A stretch of DNA of 64,000 nucleotides from Sulfurimicrobium lacus (GTDB lineage Bacteria; Pseudomonadota; Gammaproteobacteria; Burkholderiales; Sulfuricellaceae): contig NZ_AP022853.1 in NCBI RefSeq assembly GCF_011764585.1, positions 2,699,501 through 2,763,500 of the forward strand. Direction: 5' to 3'. Shown piece after piece: positions 1 through 8,277 of the stretch (position 1 is its first letter; each line of letters starts with the position of its first letter). The notes beneath the pieces were generated by a model. The model had not been told where the DNA came from. It was given only the letters and a program-made list of their open reading frames with translations, and searched no databases. A program made the position numbers and the translations under genes.

Positions 1-424
1 AGACCCAGGAGCAGAACGTGCGCCCGCCCAGCGCCAGCCACAGGACGAAAACCGTACCGGTACCGATCAGCAGGTTGACGATGATGTGCTTGTGCGCCAG
101 CATCACCTGCAGCGCGGAATTCAGGTCGATCAGGTGGAAGCCGAGCATGCGCGATGCAGTCAGTGCGCCTTCCAGTATCTGGATGTCGAACCAGAACGAC
201 ACCGTGAACAGCAGGTTGATCGACAGCAGCGCGATCCAGCGCCTCTTGAGCCAGTATTTCTTCTTCTGGTGTGCGCGCGCCTCCAGCTTGAGCGCGTCGA
301 AGTCATGCTTCTCGCTCTTCTTGTAGAAGTGGATGGTCTTGGCTTCTTCAGTGTAGTCGACGGGGCCGGGCTTGCGCGGATCGCCGCCCAGCATCACACG
401 CACCGATTCAAGATATTTGTTCAT
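1..424 (-). CDS. nosH: NosH/NapH-like membrane ferredoxin protein, N-terminal part
   Basis: The gene runs off the left edge; about 141 N-terminal residues are visible, starting MNKYLESVRVMLGG. Two hydrophobic segments (around LLSINLLFTVSFWF and NLLIGTGTVFVLWL) are followed by GGRTFCSWV, which matches the conserved GR-FC-WVC start of the NapH/NosR polyferredoxin family. In that family the protein sits in the inner membrane and passes quinol electrons toward periplasmic partners. The ATG overlaps the nosG stop codon by one base (TGATG), so the two are translationally coupled. The Fe-S motifs lie outside the window. The family call is firm; the nos-specific name rests on the neighbours. Confidence 0.85.
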   Translation of the reverse strand, partial: MNKYLESVRVMLGGDPRKPGPVDYTEEAKTIHFYKKSEKHDFDALKLEARAHQKKKYWLKRRWIALLSINLLFTVSFWFDIQILEGALTASRMLGFHLIDLNSALQVMLAHKHIIVNLLIGTGTVFVLWLALGGRTFCSWV

Positions 425-1263
425 CAGACGCTCCAGCCTTTGCGCGCTTCCACCACGATTGCCGCCAGATCGGGCGGGCATACCATTTCGCACACTCCAC
501 AGCCGACGCAGGCTTCATGCACCACGGGCGAATGGATCTCGACACCATTTTCCTTCACGATTTCCATGGAAATCGCGTTCTTGATCGGGCAGGTGCGCAC
601 GCACAGGTCGCACAGTTCGAGGTCGTACGGGTGATCGCGCAGCGGGATGGGCTTCCAGCGATCCACTTCCATGAAACGCATCGTGCCCTCGAACGACTGC
701 CCTCGAGCCGCGCCCTTGATGCCCTTGCCCTGGCGCGCGAGGCATTTTTCCGGGCGCACCAGGACAGCCAGGCCGCTGCGCTCCTTCAGGTTCAGCGTGG
801 GTTCCGGGCTCTTTTCCTTGGCAAGCAGGATGGGAGGGGCTGGCAACACCATCTCGCTGCGCGTCGGCATGAAGGTGGGCTTCTTGTAAACCAGCGCACC
901 CGTGGGACAGGCCAGGATGCACTGCACGGCATCACAGGAAAAATCGCAAGCCTGGGTGCGCGAGTCGATATAGGGCACGCCCACACCAAAACCCTGATCG
1001 AGATCGTCGAGCTTGATGGCCGCGACCGGGCAAACCTGGACGCACTGGCCGCACTTGATGCAGGAAGAAAGAAAATCCGGCTCTTCCAGCGCGCCCGGCG
1101 GCCGCATGCGCACATTCCATGCCCTGGCCACCGGAATATAGCCGACCGAGGAAATGCCCAACACCGCCGCGCCCAGCACGACGGAGCGCAAGAATTTCCG
1201 CCGCGCCTCCAGCTTGCGCTTGTTGATCAGGGGATTGCTTGCTCGTGGTTTCTCATCGCTCAT
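424..1263 (-). CDS. nosG: NosG/NapG-like periplasmic ferredoxin
   Basis: A 279-residue ferredoxin-type protein. A twin-arginine signal RRKFLRSVVLG near residue 22 precedes a hydrophobic stretch, so export is probably by Tat with clusters already inserted. Four cysteine clusters can be read: CIKCGQCVQVCP, CDAVQCILACP, CDLCVRTCP and CVGCGVCEMVCP. The start was set at the ATG that overlaps the nosD stop (ATGA); the reading frame stays open upstream but lies inside nosD. In clade II nos clusters NosG and NosH are thought to form an electron route from menaquinol toward NosZ. That role is family knowledge, not shown by the sequence itself. Confidence 0.9.
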   Translation of the reverse strand: MSDEKPRASNPLINKRKLEARRKFLRSVVLGAAVLGISSVGYIPVARAWNVRMRPPGALEEPDFLSSCIKCGQCVQVCPVAAIKLDDLDQGFGVGVPYIDSRTQACDFSCDAVQCILACPTGALVYKKPTFMPTRSEMVLPAPPILLAKEKSPEPTLNLKERSGLAVLVRPEKCLARQGKGIKGAARGQSFEGTMRFMEVDRWKPIPLRDHPYDLELCDLCVRTCPIKNAISMEIVKENGVEIHSPVVHEACVGCGVCEMVCPPDLAAIVVEARKGWSV

Positions 1264-2690
1264 GGCCTGGCACTCACTTTCTGGGAACTCGCTTTCTGGC
1301 CCTTTTTCCAGGGATCGTTGAACAGGGGCTTTTCGTCCCGCAACAATAATGTTGGACTGGAAAAAGGCGCCAACCGTTCGAGAAAATCCAGCACTTCCAG
1401 CGCGGGCGCAACCTTGAAAAAGCGCGCCTGGGGAATTTCCATCCATATGCTGTCCGCGTAGGCATACAGGTCGTAAGCGGAGTCCCCGCGACCGTCATTG
1501 TTGCGGTCGAAGCCTTCGTAGTCGTCCCAAAAATTGCCGCGCCATTCATTGCGCTGCCCCGAGCCTGCGCCGCTCACGGAAAGATTCGAGATATTGCCCA
1601 CGAAGGAGTTGCCGTGCACCACCCAGCCGCTCAGCTCGCTGTTGAAAGCGATGGCGACGCCGTTGTAAGCGATGCGGTTGTTCTTGACGACGATCTTGCT
1701 GTCGGGCTGAAACGGTGAGAGATCGGCCATGAGGCCGAGGGAAGAGTAAATGATCTCGTTACCTTCGATCAGTGACCCGCTCGCTTCCTTGAAGCCGATA
1801 CCCATCCCGGTTGGCCCGTTGGAATGCGAGATAATATTATTGCGCAGAGTGGTATTCTGGTTGTACATCAAATAGATGCCGACCGCATTGTCGTAAAACT
1901 CGTTGCCGTCGACGACGTTGTTGTTGGCGAACATGAAATGCAGCGAGTAACGGCTGCGCGTGCCGTAGTTGTGGTAGAAAACGTTGCCGTTCGAGTACCA
2001 CGCCACGTTGTCGCGCGAATCCACCACCCGGTTGTTCTCGATGCGGTTTTCCATGCTGTACCAGAGACGGATACCATCGCCACGCACGCCCATATCGACT
2101 GGCTTGGAACGCACGCTGTTACCGCGCACGATATTGCGGTTGGACTGCTTGAGGTCGATACCGAACAGGCAATTGTCGATCACATTGTTTTCGATCACAT
2201 TGCGGTGGCCGCGCACGTTGAGACAGGCATCGTCGGTGTCGTGCGACGATCCGGAGCCGGTGAGATGCAGGCCGCGCACCGTTGCGCCACTGGTCTCGAT
2301 CACGAACACCGTTCCCTTGTCGCCGCCATCGACCGTGGCCTTGCCGCCGCCGTCGATGATCAACGGCTTGGTCAGATGCACCGGACCGGCGTAGCGACCG
2401 GGCTTGAGCCGCAGCGTAGAGCCCGCCGGAGCGGCATCCACCAGCGACTGCAACGGCGTGAGGCCCCAGATGCGCTTGTCGCGCATATAAAGTGGCACCA
2501 GTACCACTGGCTTGTCCACATCGACCCGCGGCGCCGTACTCAAATCCACACCCGTTACACCTGGGCCTTTCGGCGTTGCGTGTACCGAGGTATCGTCCGC
2601 GCCAATGTCAGGGATATCATCTACGCCAGCAGCGCTTGCCAGCGTTGCGGTTGCAGCCAGCAGAAGCAAAAATATTTGCCGCAATTTCAT
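1260..2690 (-). CDS. nosD: NosD, copper-site maturation protein of nitrous oxide reductase
   Basis: A 476-residue periplasmic protein starting MKLRQIFLLLLAATATLASA, a clear Sec signal peptide. The body is a run of parallel beta-helix (CASH/NosD) repeats rich in Asn and Gly, such as NVIENNVIDNCLFGIDL, NRIENNRVVDSRDNV and YNQNTTLRNNIISHSNG. NosD works with the NosFY ABC transporter in building the CuZ sulfide-bridged copper cluster. The upstream in-frame extension to 2783 was rejected because it would precede the signal peptide. The gene follows nosB after 108 nt and overlaps nosG by four bases. Confidence 0.95.
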   Translation of the reverse strand: MKLRQIFLLLLAATATLASAAGVDDIPDIGADDTSVHATPKGPGVTGVDLSTAPRVDVDKPVVLVPLYMRDKRIWGLTPLQSLVDAAPAGSTLRLKPGRYAGPVHLTKPLIIDGGGKATVDGGDKGTVFVIETSGATVRGLHLTGSGSSHDTDDACLNVRGHRNVIENNVIDNCLFGIDLKQSNRNIVRGNSVRSKPVDMGVRGDGIRLWYSMENRIENNRVVDSRDNVAWYSNGNVFYHNYGTRSRYSLHFMFANNNVVDGNEFYDNAVGIYLMYNQNTTLRNNIISHSNGPTGMGIGFKEASGSLIEGNEIIYSSLGLMADLSPFQPDSKIVVKNNRIAYNGVAIAFNSELSGWVVHGNSFVGNISNLSVSGAGSGQRNEWRGNFWDDYEGFDRNNDGRGDSAYDLYAYADSIWMEIPQARFFKVAPALEVLDFLERLAPFSSPTLLLRDEKPLFNDPWKKGQKASSQKVSARP

Positions 2691-2798
2691 CACTCGAAAA
2701 TTTATGGACTGTAGTCCGCAAAGTAAACAAGGCGCACCAGGTCGCATCTGCAGGCGAGAGGCGGATGGGCAGACAACGCCCACATCCGCCCCGCGGAA

Positions 2799-3776
2799 CT
2801 AGTTAACTTCCGGGTCCCCGCGCATCAGCTTGCGGCGGATCAGCAGGGCCAACAGGGCACAAGCGCTGACGCCGAGCAGCATTGCATAGCCGTAATACGG
2901 GTAGGAATAAGTGCTGAACTGCGCTACCTTGCCCTCACCGAATACGGTCGGCATGAAGGGTTTGACGGTGAAGGCGCCCCAGGGATGGAGGTTGTGTCCA
3001 AAGAACCACAGCCAGCCGGCATAATCCAGCACGAAGAAAACGGGCAACAAGGCCGGAACCAGGACAAGCAGCAGGGAAAACTTCCGCACTTTCCACACCC
3101 CGAGCATGACAATACCCATGGCGACGATCAGCCCGGCAATGGACGCCTTGGTGGCCCATTTCAGATTACCAACCCATCTGTCGAGAACCTCAGGCTGGTT
3201 GAAAAACTTGCTCGCCTCTTCATGATAATGCGTAGCGAATACGTTCATCTGCCCCAACACCAGTTGGTCCGTTACCATCCAGGCGGCCACGCCGGCAAAG
3301 CCCACCCCCAGAATCAGGAGCTGCCGTTTGCGTTGCGTCGCCATGAAGCCCGCCATCATGACGGCAAGGAAGCCGAAGATGAACTTGGACAGGCGCAACT
3401 CCACCGGAGAACCGGTATCGATCGGGTACATGCCCACATAGTGGTTGATGGTGTTCATCTCATCCACGCAATTCAGTCCCAACTCCTGTTTTTTCAGGTC
3501 CATGCCAGGATTTTCGCGCGCCGCAAGGTCATCGCCCAGGTCGGACTGCATCAGCTCGGCTTGGCGGCCGGTCTGTACGATTGCGGTCTTGCAGCCGTTG
3601 AACACGCCGTTGAAGTGAAAATGGATGCGAATCCCATCTGGGAAAGCATCCTTTGGATAGTTGGGCGCCGTCAACGACACCCACCAGATGGGGCTGAAAT
3701 AGGCCGCCACCATCAGTACCATCGCGATAAAGGTCAGCACCCTTATCGTAATCATTTGTTTTTTTGTATTGCTCAT
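2799..3776 (-). CDS. nosB: NosB-like multi-span membrane protein
   Basis: A 325-residue integral membrane protein with about six hydrophobic helices, for example VLTFIAMVLMVAAYFSPIWW near the N-terminus, LLILGVGFAGVAAWMV, and FSLLLVLVPALLPVFFVLDY. A large periplasmic loop rich in charged residues follows helix 1. Clade II nos clusters (Wolinella, Dechloromonas) carry a membrane protein of this kind, NosB, between nosZ and nosD; its biochemical role is not established. The start is placed at MSNTKKQ, preceded by GAGAG, rather than five codons upstream where no ribosome site is seen. The assignment rests mostly on position and topology. Confidence 0.75.
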   Translation of the reverse strand: MSNTKKQMITIRVLTFIAMVLMVAAYFSPIWWVSLTAPNYPKDAFPDGIRIHFHFNGVFNGCKTAIVQTGRQAELMQSDLGDDLAARENPGMDLKKQELGLNCVDEMNTINHYVGMYPIDTGSPVELRLSKFIFGFLAVMMAGFMATQRKRQLLILGVGFAGVAAWMVTDQLVLGQMNVFATHYHEEASKFFNQPEVLDRWVGNLKWATKASIAGLIVAMGIVMLGVWKVRKFSLLLVLVPALLPVFFVLDYAGWLWFFGHNLHPWGAFTVKPFMPTVFGEGKVAQFSTYSYPYYGYAMLLGVSACALLALLIRRKLMRGDPEVN

Positions 3777-3936: not shown

Positions 3937-4674
3937 TTATTTCTTTTTCGCGCCTGCCTTGCACATCGAACCCGGCATGCTGATGCTGGACATGTACTCG
4001 ACCACCGCATCCAGATCCTTGTCGCTGTATTTCTTCACGATCTTGACCATGTCCGGGTTGGCATTGCGACGCTTGCCATCACGGATATCGGTCACCTGGC
4101 GCAGCAGGTACTTGTAATGCTGGCCGGCCAGTACCGGGTAGAACTTTTTGGCATCGCCCTCGCCGTTGGCGCCATGGCAGGTGGTGCATTCCTTCACGTA
4201 CAGTTCCTTGCCCTGAGCCAGCAGCTTGGCGTCGCCCGAACCCTTGCCGTGATCAGTCGGTATGCACAAGGTCTGGATGTACGCCGCGACGTCCGCCAGT
4301 TCCTGCGCATCGGTCAGGGTCTGCGCAAAAGGATACATGGTAGGGTTGTCACGCAAACCGCCACGAATGTCGGCGATCTGCTTGATGATTACGGTTGCAT
4401 GCTGCCCCGCCAGTTGCGGGAAAGTACCATCGGGACGGCCGGCACCGGAAGGCAGATGGCAGGCGCCGCAAATTTCATACGCCTCCTTGCCTGCCTTGAC
4501 GTCGCCCTTCTTGTGCAGCGCTTCGATTTTCTCGCCGCCGCCGGACTGATCATTCCACACATAGCCCTTGGCCTCGATACCCGCCTTTTTTTCCGCCACA
4601 TTGGGGTTTGCGGCCAGAGCTGCGGCAACCGGGGTCAGTGCCAGTGCCAGTGCAATTACTAAATGCTTTTTCAT
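3937..4674 (-). CDS. Diheme cytochrome c (c4-like), nos cluster
   Basis: A 245-residue exported protein with a signal peptide MKKHLVIALALALTPVAAALA and two heme c sites: CGACH near residue 72 and CTTCH near residue 163. Each begins a c4-type half-domain ending in a methionine-containing helix. The ribosome site is AAAGGAAA. Clade II nos clusters carry nosC1/nosC2 cytochromes that feed electrons to NosZ in the periplasm, and this gene fits that role. It has its own FNR-type promoter just upstream, separate from the monoheme cytochrome gene. C4-type cytochromes also serve oxidases, so the electron acceptor is inferred from context. Confidence 0.88.
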   Translation of the reverse strand: MKKHLVIALALALTPVAAALAANPNVAEKKAGIEAKGYVWNDQSGGGEKIEALHKKGDVKAGKEAYEICGACHLPSGAGRPDGTFPQLAGQHATVIIKQIADIRGGLRDNPTMYPFAQTLTDAQELADVAAYIQTLCIPTDHGKGSGDAKLLAQGKELYVKECTTCHGANGEGDAKKFYPVLAGQHYKYLLRQVTDIRDGKRRNANPDMVKIVKKYSDKDLDAVVEYMSSISMPGSMCKAGAKKK

Positions 4675-4708: not shown

Positions 4709-4750
4709 ATTCTAGACACTGTACCGGGTATCGTCCTTGACTTAAGTCAA
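4709..4750 (-). promoter_or_regulatory. FNR/DNR-type class II promoter of the diheme cytochrome gene
   Basis: The dyad TTGACTTAAGTCAA (4737-4750) is a perfect palindrome related to the FNR consensus TTGAT-N4-ATCAA. On the minus strand a -10 hexamer TAGAAT (4714-4709) lies 29.5 bp from the dyad centre, which puts the dyad at about -41.5 from the expected start near 4702, the class II activator position. The ATG is 28 nt further on. Confidence 0.75.
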
Positions 4751-4769: not shown

Positions 4770-5090
4770 TCAGGGTTTAAGTTTAGACACGTAAGCCGCG
4801 ATATCCTTGACATCTTGATCGCTTACCAGAACCATCACGCCCTTCATCGCCGCACTGTTGCCGTTGGCACGGGCACCGCTCTTGATATCGTTCATCTGCT
4901 TGATCATGTAGGCTTCGTTCTGGCCTGCGATCTTTGGATAATCCGGCATCAGCGGGGTTTTGGCATCCTTGCCATGGCAAGCCGTACAGGTCTTTTCTGC
5001 AAACAATTTCGCGCCGTCGGCGGCAACAGCCTGGCCGTTCAGCATGGCCGTAGAAACCGCTGCAAACAGCATTATTGGCAATAATTTCAT
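4770..5090 (-). CDS. Monoheme cytochrome c, nos cluster
   Basis: A 106-residue exported class I cytochrome c. The signal peptide is MKLLPIMLFAAVSTAMLNGQ, the heme site is CTACH, and a C-terminal KDIAAYVSKLKP helix closes the fold. The start at 5090 is preceded by AAGGAG at ideal spacing; the longer in-frame extension to 5174 would run through the promoter and was rejected. It lies between the nosZ terminator and the diheme cytochrome promoter, so it is probably transcribed from its own FNR-type promoter. A role as small electron donor to NosZ is inferred from position. Confidence 0.88.
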   Translation of the reverse strand: MKLLPIMLFAAVSTAMLNGQAVAADGAKLFAEKTCTACHGKDAKTPLMPDYPKIAGQNEAYMIKQMNDIKSGARANGNSAAMKGVMVLVSDQDVKDIAAYVSKLKP

Positions 5091-5128
5091 TACTAATCTC
5101 CTTAAACATTTCATTAAGCAACAGTCGC

Positions 5129-5171
5129 ATTCTATGCTGCTTGCGTCACGCGTGGCGTTGACATGGATCAA
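5129..5171 (-). promoter_or_regulatory. FNR/DNR-type class II promoter of the monoheme cytochrome gene
   Basis: The dyad TTGACATGGATCAA (5158-5171) differs from TTGAT-N4-ATCAA at one conserved position. A -10 hexamer TAGAAT (5134-5129) lies 30.5 bp from the dyad centre, so the dyad sits near -41.5/-42.5. The same TAGAAT hexamer is used at the next promoter downstream. Confidence 0.75.
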
Positions 5172-5296: not shown

Positions 5297-7591
5297 TTAC
5301 TTGCCAGCCTTCTTGGCGCCGTGCTCTTCCAGGTAGGTCTTGGCACGCAAACCGATGTCGGCGGCTTTAACCTGGTACTGCCACCATTGGCCAGCCCAGA
5401 GGGTTGCATTCTGCCAATCGCTCTTCTTGGCAGCGTCTTCCATCTTGGCCTTGGCTTCCTTGGCCCTGTTAAGCTGGTCGGTTGCGTCGTCAACCAGAGC
5501 TACCACAGGCGGGAAGTCCTTGTAGTTGACGCTGGTGATGTAGCCCACCACGCTATCGATCACGGCCTGAGTATCCACGTTGGTCTTGACCTGTTTGTCG
5601 TAGTCAGCCTTGGTGTAAACGGCTTTTGCTTCAACAGTCTTGACTTCCTTGTAACCCTTAGGCTTGACCAGCAGGTAGCCTTCCATTTCCAGGTGCAATG
5701 CAGAGCAGAACTCGGTGCAGTAGAAGGGGAACACGCCTTCCCTGTCGGCCTTGAACTTGACCGTTACAGTCTTGCCCGGTTCGACCGAAGCGTGAACGTT
5801 ATAGGTATCTACCGTAAAGCCGTGAGTTTCGTCCTCGGCACGTTCCAGATTGGTCAGGTGGATGGTAACTTCGTCGCCCACTTCCGCCTCGATGGTTTCC
5901 GGCGTGATGTGCGAACGGATTTCCGTACCGAACACTTCAACCGACTTGCCCTTGCGCACTACCCTTTCTTCACCGGCCCTGGTCGCGCCCTTGGAAGGCT
6001 CGTCAGTGCGGCTGTCGGTACCCACTTTGTAGCGGATGCCCGGCTTGAGGGTGGTGGACTTGATCGCCACGACATAGTGCGGTTCACCCAGCGGCAACGG
6101 CATGTCGTACAGCAACTGCATCTTGTCTTCGCTGATGTCGATCAACTGGTGGTTCTGCGGATGCAGCGGGCCAACCGGGATGAAGCGGTCGATAGCCAGC
6201 TTGTTCAACGCCACCAGGTAATGGCCCTTCGGATGCTCGGTATCGCCCTCCATGGTCATCAGGTGGCCGATGTTGTAGTGGATGTTGAGCTTGTCCAGCA
6301 CCTTGCCTTCGCAGTAGTTCCACTTCGCCACTTGAGAGTCCACATACAGAGATGTGTAGGCGATACAGGGCTTGGAGTCATACTGTGTGTGCAGCGGCCC
6401 GAGGCCAAGTGCCACCTGCGTGTGCAGAGAGTCCTTCATGCTCAGCACGGGGATGCCGTAGGGGTCCTTGCTCTCGAACTTGCCGGCCTTGATCTGCGCC
6501 ATGATCTTGTCGAAGCTGTAGACCGATACGTGCGAGTCGAGCTTGCCGGCCACCGTGATGAGCTTGCCATCCGGGGTCACGTCCACGCCGTGCGGGCTTT
6601 TCGGCTCGGGGATCAGGAACAGGATGCCTTCCTTGACGGCGGTATCCATCATGATCACGTCCATTCCGTTGATTTTCTTGGCCTTGCCTTGCTTGACCAG
6701 CTCGGCAGCCTTCTTCCAGTTGATCATGTGCAGGTAGTCGGTGTCCTTGGCGGAGCAGCCGGCTTCATAAGGAGGGCGACCCTTTTCGATACCGCCCACA
6801 TAGCGCTCGGTACAGAAGGAGTTGGTGAAGGACCAGCCGTCTGACACCAGCTTGCCGGCGTCGGACAAATCCTGGCTATAAGGTGGCAATTCCACGGTGA
6901 AAGACTGCTTGGGATCGATCTTGCCGGACTTGCGATCGAATTTCCAGTACGTTACGCCGCCGCGATATTCCTCGTTGAAGCGCTCGAGCGGTACGAACTT
7001 CTTGCTATACGGCGCGGGATACTGCGATGCCTCGATAACATAATCGGTGTTAGGCGTAACGAAGGCGCCACCGTGCTCCGATTTGTACAGGGGGTTGACC
7101 ACGATCTGCTTGGTTTCGAAGTCACGCAGGTCGATCACCGCCAGGCGCGGGTTGGCCTTGTCGTTAATGAACAGGAACTGGCCGTCATAATCGCCGTTGG
7201 TTTCGGAAAGCGCCGGGTGGTGAGTATCGCCCCAGTTGATTTCCTTGCCGTCGATGTTGCCCTGGCGCAGCACTTTCTTCGACTCTTCGTCGAAGCCATA
7301 GCCCTGCCATGGCTCGGGTGTGAACACGCCGATGTATTTCATGATGCGCATGGACGGAATGCCATACACAATAATCTGGCCACTTTGGCCGCCGGATGCA
7401 AAAGCGGTGAATTCATCACGTCCGCCAGTTGGCACATAGGTCTTGGCTGCAGCCAGCAGATTTTGTTGTGTCAAACCCCGGGCCTTCATCACGTCCTGCA
7501 ATGACTCGGCGGCCCAAGTACTTCCTGCAGCGCCGACTCCAAGCGTTGCCGCAACGAGCAACGAGGTTGTTCGCTTATTGAATGGCTTCAT
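5297..7591 (-). CDS. nosZ: Nitrous oxide reductase, Sec-type (clade II), with C-terminal tail
   Basis: A 764-residue periplasmic enzyme that reduces N2O to N2. The signal peptide (about residues 1-27) has no RR-x-F twin-arginine motif, which fits the Sec-exported clade II enzymes. An N-terminal beta-propeller carries GDTHHPALSE near residue 125, a CuZ histidine pair. The C-terminal cupredoxin domain carries the CuA site CTEFCSALHLEM (Cys, Cys, His, Met near 625-636). About 110 helical, Lys/Ala-rich residues follow the CuA domain, which the roughly 640-residue classical enzymes lack. The start is the ATG at 7591 (AAAGGA upstream), not the GTG one codon earlier. It is transcribed alone between an FNR-type promoter and a strong terminator. 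Confidence 0.97.
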   Translation of the reverse strand: MKPFNKRTTSLLVAATLGVGAAGSTWAAESLQDVMKARGLTQQNLLAAAKTYVPTGGRDEFTAFASGGQSGQIIVYGIPSMRIMKYIGVFTPEPWQGYGFDEESKKVLRQGNIDGKEINWGDTHHPALSETNGDYDGQFLFINDKANPRLAVIDLRDFETKQIVVNPLYKSEHGGAFVTPNTDYVIEASQYPAPYSKKFVPLERFNEEYRGGVTYWKFDRKSGKIDPKQSFTVELPPYSQDLSDAGKLVSDGWSFTNSFCTERYVGGIEKGRPPYEAGCSAKDTDYLHMINWKKAAELVKQGKAKKINGMDVIMMDTAVKEGILFLIPEPKSPHGVDVTPDGKLITVAGKLDSHVSVYSFDKIMAQIKAGKFESKDPYGIPVLSMKDSLHTQVALGLGPLHTQYDSKPCIAYTSLYVDSQVAKWNYCEGKVLDKLNIHYNIGHLMTMEGDTEHPKGHYLVALNKLAIDRFIPVGPLHPQNHQLIDISEDKMQLLYDMPLPLGEPHYVVAIKSTTLKPGIRYKVGTDSRTDEPSKGATRAGEERVVRKGKSVEVFGTEIRSHITPETIEAEVGDEVTIHLTNLERAEDETHGFTVDTYNVHASVEPGKTVTVKFKADREGVFPFYCTEFCSALHLEMEGYLLVKPKGYKEVKTVEAKAVYTKADYDKQVKTNVDTQAVIDSVVGYITSVNYKDFPPVVALVDDATDQLNRAKEAKAKMEDAAKKSDWQNATLWAGQWWQYQVKAADIGLRAKTYLEEHGAKKAGK

Positions 7592-7668
7592 CACAAAATC
7601 CTTTCATCAAAAGTTGAACTACAATCCATCCCGTCGCCGATGATGCACGTGCGACAATTTGTCACAGG

Positions 7669-7739
7669 ATTATGCGGGCTAACAGTACCCCGATCATTGA
7701 CATGAATCAAGAAATAATTAAGTACTTGCACCCTATAAT
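7669..7739. promoter_or_regulatory. Bidirectional FNR/DNR-type promoter between nosZ and the tlpA-like gene
   Basis: One dyad, TTGACATGAATCAA (7697-7710), lies between the divergent genes. Toward nosZ, CATAAT (7674-7669) begins 29.5 bp from the dyad centre. Toward the thioredoxin gene, a perfect TATAAT (7734-7739) begins 30.5 bp away. Each is the class II position (about -41.5), so one bound regulator could activate both genes in low oxygen or with nitric oxide. The regulator (FNR, DNR or NNR) cannot be told from the site. Confidence 0.75.
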
Positions 7740-7761
7740 TGCGGACTCCTGAGGAGTTGCG

Positions 7762-8277
7762 ATGCTTAAACACATAATTCTTATGCTGGTGCTGCTGTCA
7801 CCGTTGACCGAAGCAGCGGAAACCAGTACCACCTCCGCGCCGCTCTATACCGCGACTTTTCCCGGCCTGGATGGCCAGCCCGTGAGCCTGTCCCAGTTGC
7901 GGGGCAAGGTGGCAGTTGTAAATTTCTGGGCGACCTGGTGCCCGCCCTGCCGCAAGGAGATGCCCGATCTGGTGGCGGCTTACGCTAAATATCATGACCG
8001 TGGCGTCGCATTTGTCGGCATCGCGGTCGAGGACGACGCCGAACGGGTGCAGGAATTCGCCCGCGCTTACAAGGTCGAGTACCCCCTGGCGACCGGCAAG
8101 GCGGAAGGCATCGCACTGCTGCAAGCGCTGGGCAATAGTGTGGCCGGACTTCCCTACACCCTGGTGCTCGATACACAGGGGAACATCGTCGACAGGAAGC
8201 GCGGCCCGATCAGTCCAGATCGGCTGGAAGGGGCGCTGCAAGAGGCCATGGTCGCTCCCGCCGCGGATTCCAAATAG
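7762..8277 (+). CDS. TlpA/ResA-like periplasmic thiol-disulfide oxidoreductase
   Basis: A 171-residue exported thioredoxin-fold protein. After a signal peptide (LILMLVLLSPLTEA) it has NFWATWCPPCRKEMP with the CPPC active site at residues 60-63, and a conserved cis-proline region GLPYTLVLD. TlpA/ResA proteins reduce disulfides in apo-cytochromes or in copper sites before metal insertion. Divergence from nosZ at a shared FNR-type dyad suggests it helps mature heme c or CuA proteins during N2O respiration. The ribosome site GAGGAG lies inside a short palindrome (ACTCCT-G-AGGAGT, 7745-7757), which could hide it by folding. The partner substrate is not known. Confidence 0.88.
   Translation: MLKHIILMLVLLSPLTEAAETSTTSAPLYTATFPGLDGQPVSLSQLRGKVAVVNFWATWCPPCRKEMPDLVAAYAKYHDRGVAFVGIAVEDDAERVQEFARAYKVEYPLATGKAEGIALLQALGNSVAGLPYTLVLDTQGNIVDRKRGPISPDRLEGALQEAMVAPAADSK

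Follow-up and report, generated by a model that had tools for sequence, protein, structure and literature searches.

One FNR/DNR-type site between nosZ and a tlpA-like gene of Sulfurimicrobium lacus: a predicted two-way class II promoter with a candidate RegA-type operator on the nosZ arm

Bacteria with a clade II nitrous oxide reductase are a major biological sink of N2O, and the regulation of the reductase in them is poorly known. In Sulfurimicrobium lacus the gene for such an enzyme, nosZ, stands back to back with a gene for a TlpA-like periplasmic protein, and a first-pass annotation of the locus had proposed that one FNR-type dyad is placed to drive both genes, predicting their strict co-induction. 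The locus thus raises the question whether a single regulator dimer can serve two genes facing away from each other and, if so, whether the two would be made strictly together. The reading that we favour after comparing the window (the whole stretch of 64,000 nucleotides analysed) with related loci, and to which we give a probability of about 60%, is that one FNR/DNR site would serve both arms, that a RegA-type regulator would act in addition at nosZ only, and that the place of the divergent gene is an exchangeable slot.

The product of nosZ (5297–7591, minus strand) matches TIGR04246 with 908.2 bits (cut-off 625) and is a Sec-dependent, clade II enzyme. Behind nosZ the minus strand carries a c-type cytochrome gene (gene 1, 4770–5093, PF00034), a second c-type cytochrome gene with two haem domains (gene 2, 3937–4674, two PF00034 stretches) and, within 424–3776, genes for a membrane protein, NosD (TIGR04247) and a ferredoxin of the NapG/MauM type, in this order. 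The membrane protein, for which no family match was obtained, and the ferredoxin are presumably nosB- and nosG-like, names given to them by position. Both cytochrome genes have an FNR-type dyad of their own with TAGAAT at class II distance: 5158–5171 with the hexamer at 5134–5129 (minus strand) upstream of gene 1, and 4737–4750 with the hexamer at 4714–4709 (minus strand) upstream of gene 2. Dyads downstream of nosZ recur in 14 of 15 nos clusters examined in the family.

The intergenic region between nosZ and the tlpA-like gene (7762–8277, plus strand) measures 170 bp. It contains the dyad TTGACATGAATCAA at 7697–7710 (like the other dyads and palindromes described here assigned to no strand), which is common to both divergent promoters, is an exact match to TTGAY-N4-RTCAA and departs from TTGAT-N4-ATCAA at one position. 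From its centre at 7703.5 it is 29.5 bp to CATAAT, the −10 hexamer of the nosZ arm (7674–7669, minus strand; 22 bases past the dyad; 5/6), and 30.5 bp to TATAAT, that of the tlpA arm (7734–7739, plus strand; 23 bases past the dyad; 6/6); the coordinates and the class II spacing in both directions are as the first-pass annotation had given them. Judged from the −10 positions, transcription of nosZ would start at 7662 (minus strand), with the dyad centre at −41.5, and that of tlpA at 7746 (plus strand), with the centre at about −42.5; GAGGAG at 7751–7756 (plus strand), read from the sequence, is the likely ribosome-binding site of tlpA. For these predicted starts both arms have the properties of class II FNR/DNR promoters, namely a dyad near −41.5, a good −10 and a −35 sequence that by inspection is weak. 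A sigma-70 scan, neutral on activator-dependent promoters, called no promoter at either arm, and this result and the weak −35 sequences are what is expected under class II activation.

The arrangement exceeds what chance would give. The window holds three exact TTGAY-N4-RTCAA sites, as compared with a mean of 0.195 and a maximum of 2 in 200 dinucleotide shuffles, and none of these 200 shuffled windows had a site flanked by two −10 hexamers, one per side, that score 5/6 or better. When the local flanks were shuffled, 0.13% of cases gave a 6/6 hexamer on the tlpA side and 1.8% a hexamer of 5/6 or better toward nosZ, and the two occurred together in 0 of 20,000. The genome, a single 3.83-Mb contig, has 17 exact dyads versus 9 matches to the reversed control pattern, so that about half of the dyads genome-wide may be due to chance; 10 of the 17 are found within 32 kb around nir/nap/nos (binomial p 3e-17). 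Of 20 family loci examined, 18 include the start of nosZ, and every one of these has an exact dyad upstream of the gene.

As to the regulator, the site does match the FNR type that had been named for it; this does not fix FNR itself as the activator. Among the 11 Crp-type regulators above cut-off in the genome there are, by reading of the sequences, both FNR-like proteins with a Cys cluster (L016, L019) and DNR-like ones (L017, L021), and the dyad sequence alone cannot tell FNR from DNR as the main activator. Since proteins of both kinds are encoded, NO may be a signal besides oxygen. We picture one dimer of the FNR/DNR family on the dyad, with RNA polymerase in contact with it at class II distance in both directions; loss of oxygen (through FNR) or the arrival of NO (through DNR) would then turn on nosZ from near 7662 and tlpA from near 7746.

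What the tlpA arm would deliver depends on the tlpA-like product, a periplasmic protein of the thioredoxin fold with a WCPPC motif and matches to Redoxin and AhpC-TSA. It matches models for ResA, TlpA, StoA and DsbE without exceeding the cut-off of any; with NCBIfam NF047696 (thiol:disulfide interchange protein TlpA) it reaches 76.8 bits, below the equivalog cut-off of 230, and is thus to be called "TlpA-like" only. A search of the PDB hit TlpA as well as ResA and CcmG and did not point to one function.

The distribution of the gene was followed in 85 nosZ loci. They combine 77 named loci, drawn from the 80 most similar ones among more than 589, with 16 stretches of the family itself, after removal of 8 duplicates; the relatives include Sulfuricella and similar bacteria. 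Two genomes of the family with partial nosZ contigs (G002 and G013, genus g2/g3) were kept outside the 85. Because the loci are related and the counts not independent, all p-values from this set are descriptive. A tlpA-like gene is the nearest divergent gene in only two of the 85 loci, that of the window genome and G018, where the hexamer on the tlpA side is only TAAACT (4/6) and the gap from dyad to gene is 97 bp; L130 has a divergent tlpA-like match as well, but at a greater distance. On this count tlpA was rejected as an ancestral, conserved partner of nosZ; it is a lineage-specific occupant of the divergent slot. Co-directional tlpA-like genes upstream of nosZ were found in 11 of the 85 loci, in the family of S. 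lacus typically in the order menB-menA-tlpA-menC (MenB, MenA and MenC assigned by reading of the sequences, not by family search). Menaquinone-type genes directly upstream of clade II nosZ and co-directional with it are present in many members of the family (e.g. L060, 8200–11531).

According to an excerpt of PMC7558416, the cysteines of the CuA site in oxidase subunit II are reduced by TlpA, and the CuA site of NosZ requires homologues of SCO and PCuAC. A CuA role for the protein of the window is by this precedent a reasonable inference: it would probably keep a Cys pair reduced, in the CuA site of NosZ, in a SCO chaperone or in haem c apoproteins. The alternative that it is a cytochrome c maturation protein or general thiol reductase, merely co-regulated and without a role at the copper site of NosZ, has almost an even chance of being right, for its matches spread over the ResA, TlpA, StoA and DsbE models, the nos cluster encodes c-type cytochromes, and in other members of the family tlpA stands amid menaquinone genes. 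Against it speak the reduction of CuA cysteines by TlpA in that excerpt and the presence of SCO or PCuAC, which serve CuA sites, in the divergent upstream region of 35 of the 85 loci.

Alignment of the loci on the dyad exposed a second element just past the −10 of nosZ, a 17-bp palindrome of the pattern TGYGRCA-N3-TGYCRCA. Its copy in the window, TGTGACAAATTGTCGCA (nosZ strand, 7650–7666), lies over the predicted nosZ start at 7662 and is a candidate RegA-type operator. Allowing one mismatch, the palindrome occurs in 59 of the 83 loci with enough upstream sequence for this count (the other two of the 85 are too short there), as compared with 0.07% of mononucleotide-shuffled upstream regions. 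An FNR-like site with at most two mismatches precedes it by 27–31 bp in 52 of the 59 loci, in 37 of them by 29, and the palindrome persists where the dyad has decayed, as in Dechloromonas. The asymmetry is complete in the 20 loci that have a homology-supported divergent gene at 110 bp or less (the close-divergent group, which includes L058, where the called reading frame overruns the dyad): all 20 carry the palindrome on the nosZ side and none carries it on the far side. One genome (G022, record of L078) has two nosZ copies (C33:72636 and 79543) with an exact palindrome before each.

Other palindromes can occupy the same spot. L059–L067, from sister genera without a full-length RegA, have a different one, GTGTGNCAAATNGCACAC, about 50 bp before nosZ, and a Burkholderiaceae-like group (L110, L117, L124, L141) has repeats of the CTAATCTGNNTTAG type (CTAATC type) with a T run after them, possibly an operator or an attenuator.

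The best candidate for a protein binding the 17-bp palindrome is, as judged from co-occurrence, a regulator of the RegA/PrrA/RegR type. Full-length RegA homologues (E 1e-40 or better) were found in 19 of 20 palindrome-bearing and in 3 of 14 palindrome-lacking genomes (Fisher p 1.3e-5), the 34 of the 77 named loci used in this test being hand-picked to cover both cases; the exceptions are the three palindrome-lacking genomes with RegA and one palindrome-bearing genome without it. All eight genomes of the genus of the window have RegA (in seven the palindrome is seen, one lacks the nosZ start), and so does 1 of 14 genomes of two sister genera, G008, which has a divergent nosZ; in G013 the RegA-like match is partial (E 2e-29). 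Thirteen loci have RegB-RegA genes upstream of nosZ, and each of them also has the palindrome. The window genome encodes two copies of RegA, a homologue being at G000:C1:76156-76707, and RegB beside cydB (CydB by sequence reading). None of the RegA-like proteins (0/22 and 0/34) reached the NCBIfam cut-off of 250 bits, the best having 204.

For RegR from B. japonicum the consensus GNGRCRTTNNGNCGC is given in an excerpt of PMC5506826, and the copy of the window, GTGACAAATTGTCGC, agrees with it by eye at 9 of the 11 specified positions, the two others having A in place of T. RegR binds the nosR promoter, according to an excerpt of PMC4064962.

Genome-wide the palindrome is rare: 14 RegA-bearing genomes together gave 30 forward matches versus 9 for the control, an approximately threefold excess, with one genome having 2 versus 2 and one having none. 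The window genome contains three exact copies (control, 0), at nosZ, near an lnt-like gene and before a TonB-dependent copper receptor gene; the last copy (G000:C1:53771-53787; L182, 2271–2287) is just upstream of the gene, whose product matches TIGR01778 with 796 bits. We take this receptor to be of the NosA/OprC type. Seventeen further copies were inspected in RegA-bearing genomes, and of these five are at nosZ, six within about 250 bp of genes for TonB, a TonB receptor, PCuAC or RegB (L165, L172, L173, L176, L177, L179), two 360–420 bp from SCO (L171, L174) and four without a clear target (L164, L167, L170, L180). Copies occur also in 2 of 10 RegA-lacking genomes, in one of which an exact palindrome (L162, 1501–1517) adjoins the gene of an NtrC-type response regulator.

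RegA-family sites are described as degenerate and dissimilar in the excerpt of PMC5506826, whereas the palindrome is very well kept, and another regulator is therefore possible: a Fis-type or NtrC-like protein other than RegA, or an unknown copper regulator. The copy beside the NtrC-type gene in a RegA-lacking genome would fit the former, and the several copies preceding copper-uptake or copper-chaperone genes the latter. We consider such a regulator unlikely, since the palindrome tracks the presence of RegA, RegB-RegA genes adjoin nosZ in the 13 loci mentioned, and copies precede regB itself in L176 and L179. With RegB/RegA as the most likely redox two-component system acting on the palindrome, RegA would tune nosZ as a repressor, or by release from one, according to the quinone or copper state, and would leave tlpA untouched.

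Whether the far side of the dyad is a promoter at all can be asked of the relatives. The −10 statistics draw on those 49 of the 85 loci in which an exact dyad lies no more than 260 bp from nosZ (48 once a near-duplicate is dropped); not included are loci with a degenerate dyad, e.g. those of Dechloromonas. Toward nosZ the best −10 match is highest at exactly 22 bases past the dyad (mean 3.06/6 versus a background of 1.53, sd 0.40; 49 loci), and a −10-like hexamer (at least 4/6, A2, T6) is present 22–24 bases past it in 27 of 48 loci versus 4.9% per locus at control offsets. On the far side the 20 close-divergent loci peak at 23 bases (2.55 versus 1.39, sd 0.22), where 14 co-directional loci have 1.29; the far-side spacing in the relatives is thus one base longer than that on the nosZ side, as in the window. 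By the strict rule a far-side −10 is found in 13 of 20 close-divergent and 0 of 13 co-directional loci (2.3% expected; Mann-Whitney p 2.5e-5), and in 3 of the 10 loci whose divergent gene lies farther off than 110 bp. As the far-side −10 goes with a divergent gene close by, a class II promoter in both directions appears to be a recurrent architecture; as far as sequence can tell, it is real and its partner genes differ. The proposal that the one dyad is placed to drive nosZ and the tlpA-like gene in both directions is in this respect borne out, at the level of promoter layout.

The partners in the close-divergent group are dominated by X158, an unnamed membrane protein of about 158 residues, which is the first gene in 17 of the 20 loci. 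SCO or PCuAC follows behind the first divergent gene in 7 of the 20, and cytochrome c is present in 11, ten times behind X158 and once, in L058, as the first gene. SCO or PCuAC, at 7/20, is not the usual close-divergent content. X158 is also the commonest divergent neighbour of nosZ overall, in 42 of the 85 loci (L122, L131, L140, L145, L146 and others); two members searched gave no Pfam match at E 0.1. Judged by its occupants, the divergent slot thus seems to take, interchangeably, genes for periplasmic assembly and for electron transfer; TlpA would be plugged in here and other such proteins in the relatives.

That the dyad serves nosZ only, the far-side TATAAT being a chance or constitutive promoter and tlpA outside FNR/DNR control, we regard as decidedly improbable. 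Such a view would accommodate the rarity of tlpA as nearest divergent gene (2/85), the weak tlpA-side hexamer of G018, the position of the closest tlpA homologues of other family members in a co-directional menB-menA-tlpA-menC-nosZ array, and the 13 co-directional loci, in which nosZ is the only gene that the dyad could serve. It has to contend with a 6/6 hexamer at the correct offset that local chance would give in 0.13% of cases, with the same far-side offset in the 13 of 20 loci that have other divergent genes, and with a −35 region so poor that a constitutive promoter is unlikely.

Very improbable, finally, is an RNA reading in which the palindrome is no protein operator and instead folds, at the start of the nosZ mRNA, into a stem-loop acting in stability or attenuation. 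A 7-bp stem with a 3-nt loop would indeed form where the message is predicted to begin, and different palindromes stand at this position in two other lineages. But the 5/13 pair in the 59 copies is A-C 14, G-T 23, A-T 13, G-C 7 and T-C 2 times, the non-pairing A-C being common and a compensatory trend absent, the choice between purine and pyrimidine fits a DNA motif, and exact copies also precede other genes. The hairpin was rejected as the main reading on these counts (A-C 14/59).

With the palindrome taken as a protein operator, the strict co-induction predicted by the first-pass annotation does not follow, because the nosZ arm would be additionally gated at its start, by an element that the 20 close-divergent loci have on this arm only, and because the arms should compete: with 84 bp between the predicted starts, two polymerases relying on a single dimer would be expected to get in each other's way. 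Nor does a partner that occupies the divergent slot in 2 of 85 loci fit strict co-induction. Likeliest instead, to go by the arrangement of the motifs, is a shared oxygen/NO switch with tuning specific to nosZ.

More tentatively, and as something less likely than not, the model may be extended to a group. In Rhodocyclales and Sulfuricella-like bacteria a RegB/RegA-type system would govern a small regulon for N2O and copper, comprising nosZ, PCuAC, TonB-type copper uptake and regB, via the 17-bp palindrome, which at nosZ is fixed 29 bp beyond the FNR site; the far-side gene would escape this control, so that assembly helpers (TlpA, or the X158 unit with SCO/PCuAC) would be made before or without NosZ. 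If true, the promoter would have a built-in order in which the copper site is prepared before NosZ. With a defined candidate for a second operator, a regulator proposed for it by name and a prediction that separates the two arms (a response of nosZ and none of the divergent gene), it becomes directly testable whether the redox or copper state gates N2O reduction apart from the sensing of oxygen and NO.

CRP of E. coli can activate divergently from a single site, one dimer facing class II promoters both ways. The nosZ–tlpA region is similar in that one dimer of the CRP/FNR family would stand at class II distance in both directions; it differs in that the arrangement is natural, recurrent and has exchangeable partners. 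Within the literature searched (open-licence papers; TlpA and nosZ, divergent nosZ promoters, RegA and nosZ, and the letters of the palindrome) we found no description of a two-way class II layout at nosZ or of the palindrome. Known are FNR-type sites before nosZ and RegA-type control of nos genes in two other groups; seemingly new are the two-way layout and the palindrome.

FNR-box-like sites upstream of nosZ are described for β-proteobacteria as part of the DNR regulon in an excerpt of PMC1274295, and the window resembles these class II FNR/DNR promoters in having such a site before nosZ and genes for CRP/FNR-family activators in the genome. It differs by two features that the excerpt does not mention, a divergent gene to which the site likewise stands at class II distance and a second palindrome over the nosZ start.

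RegSR controls the nos genes of Bradyrhizobium (PMC4064962, in part), and RegAB and FNR control nosZ in a Burkholderia (PMC8191878, in part); with these the window shares, as a prediction, the action of RegA-type and CRP/FNR-type regulators on nos genes. B. japonicum has a clade I nosR with imperfect, variably spaced boxes, in contrast to the well-kept 17-bp palindrome at a fixed distance from the FNR site before a clade II nosZ in the window.

For "Ca. Accumulibacter" (Rhodocyclales) an excerpt of PMC6446978 gives a predicted FNR site upstream of the nos operon, as in the window, and names RegAB as a possible co-regulator whose binding sites it states were not identified. The difference is that the palindrome was found here in eight Accumulibacter loci (L095, L101, L104, L106, L107, L108, L111, L116), and it would be a concrete candidate for the site of RegAB control that, by that excerpt, the earlier study had left unlocated.
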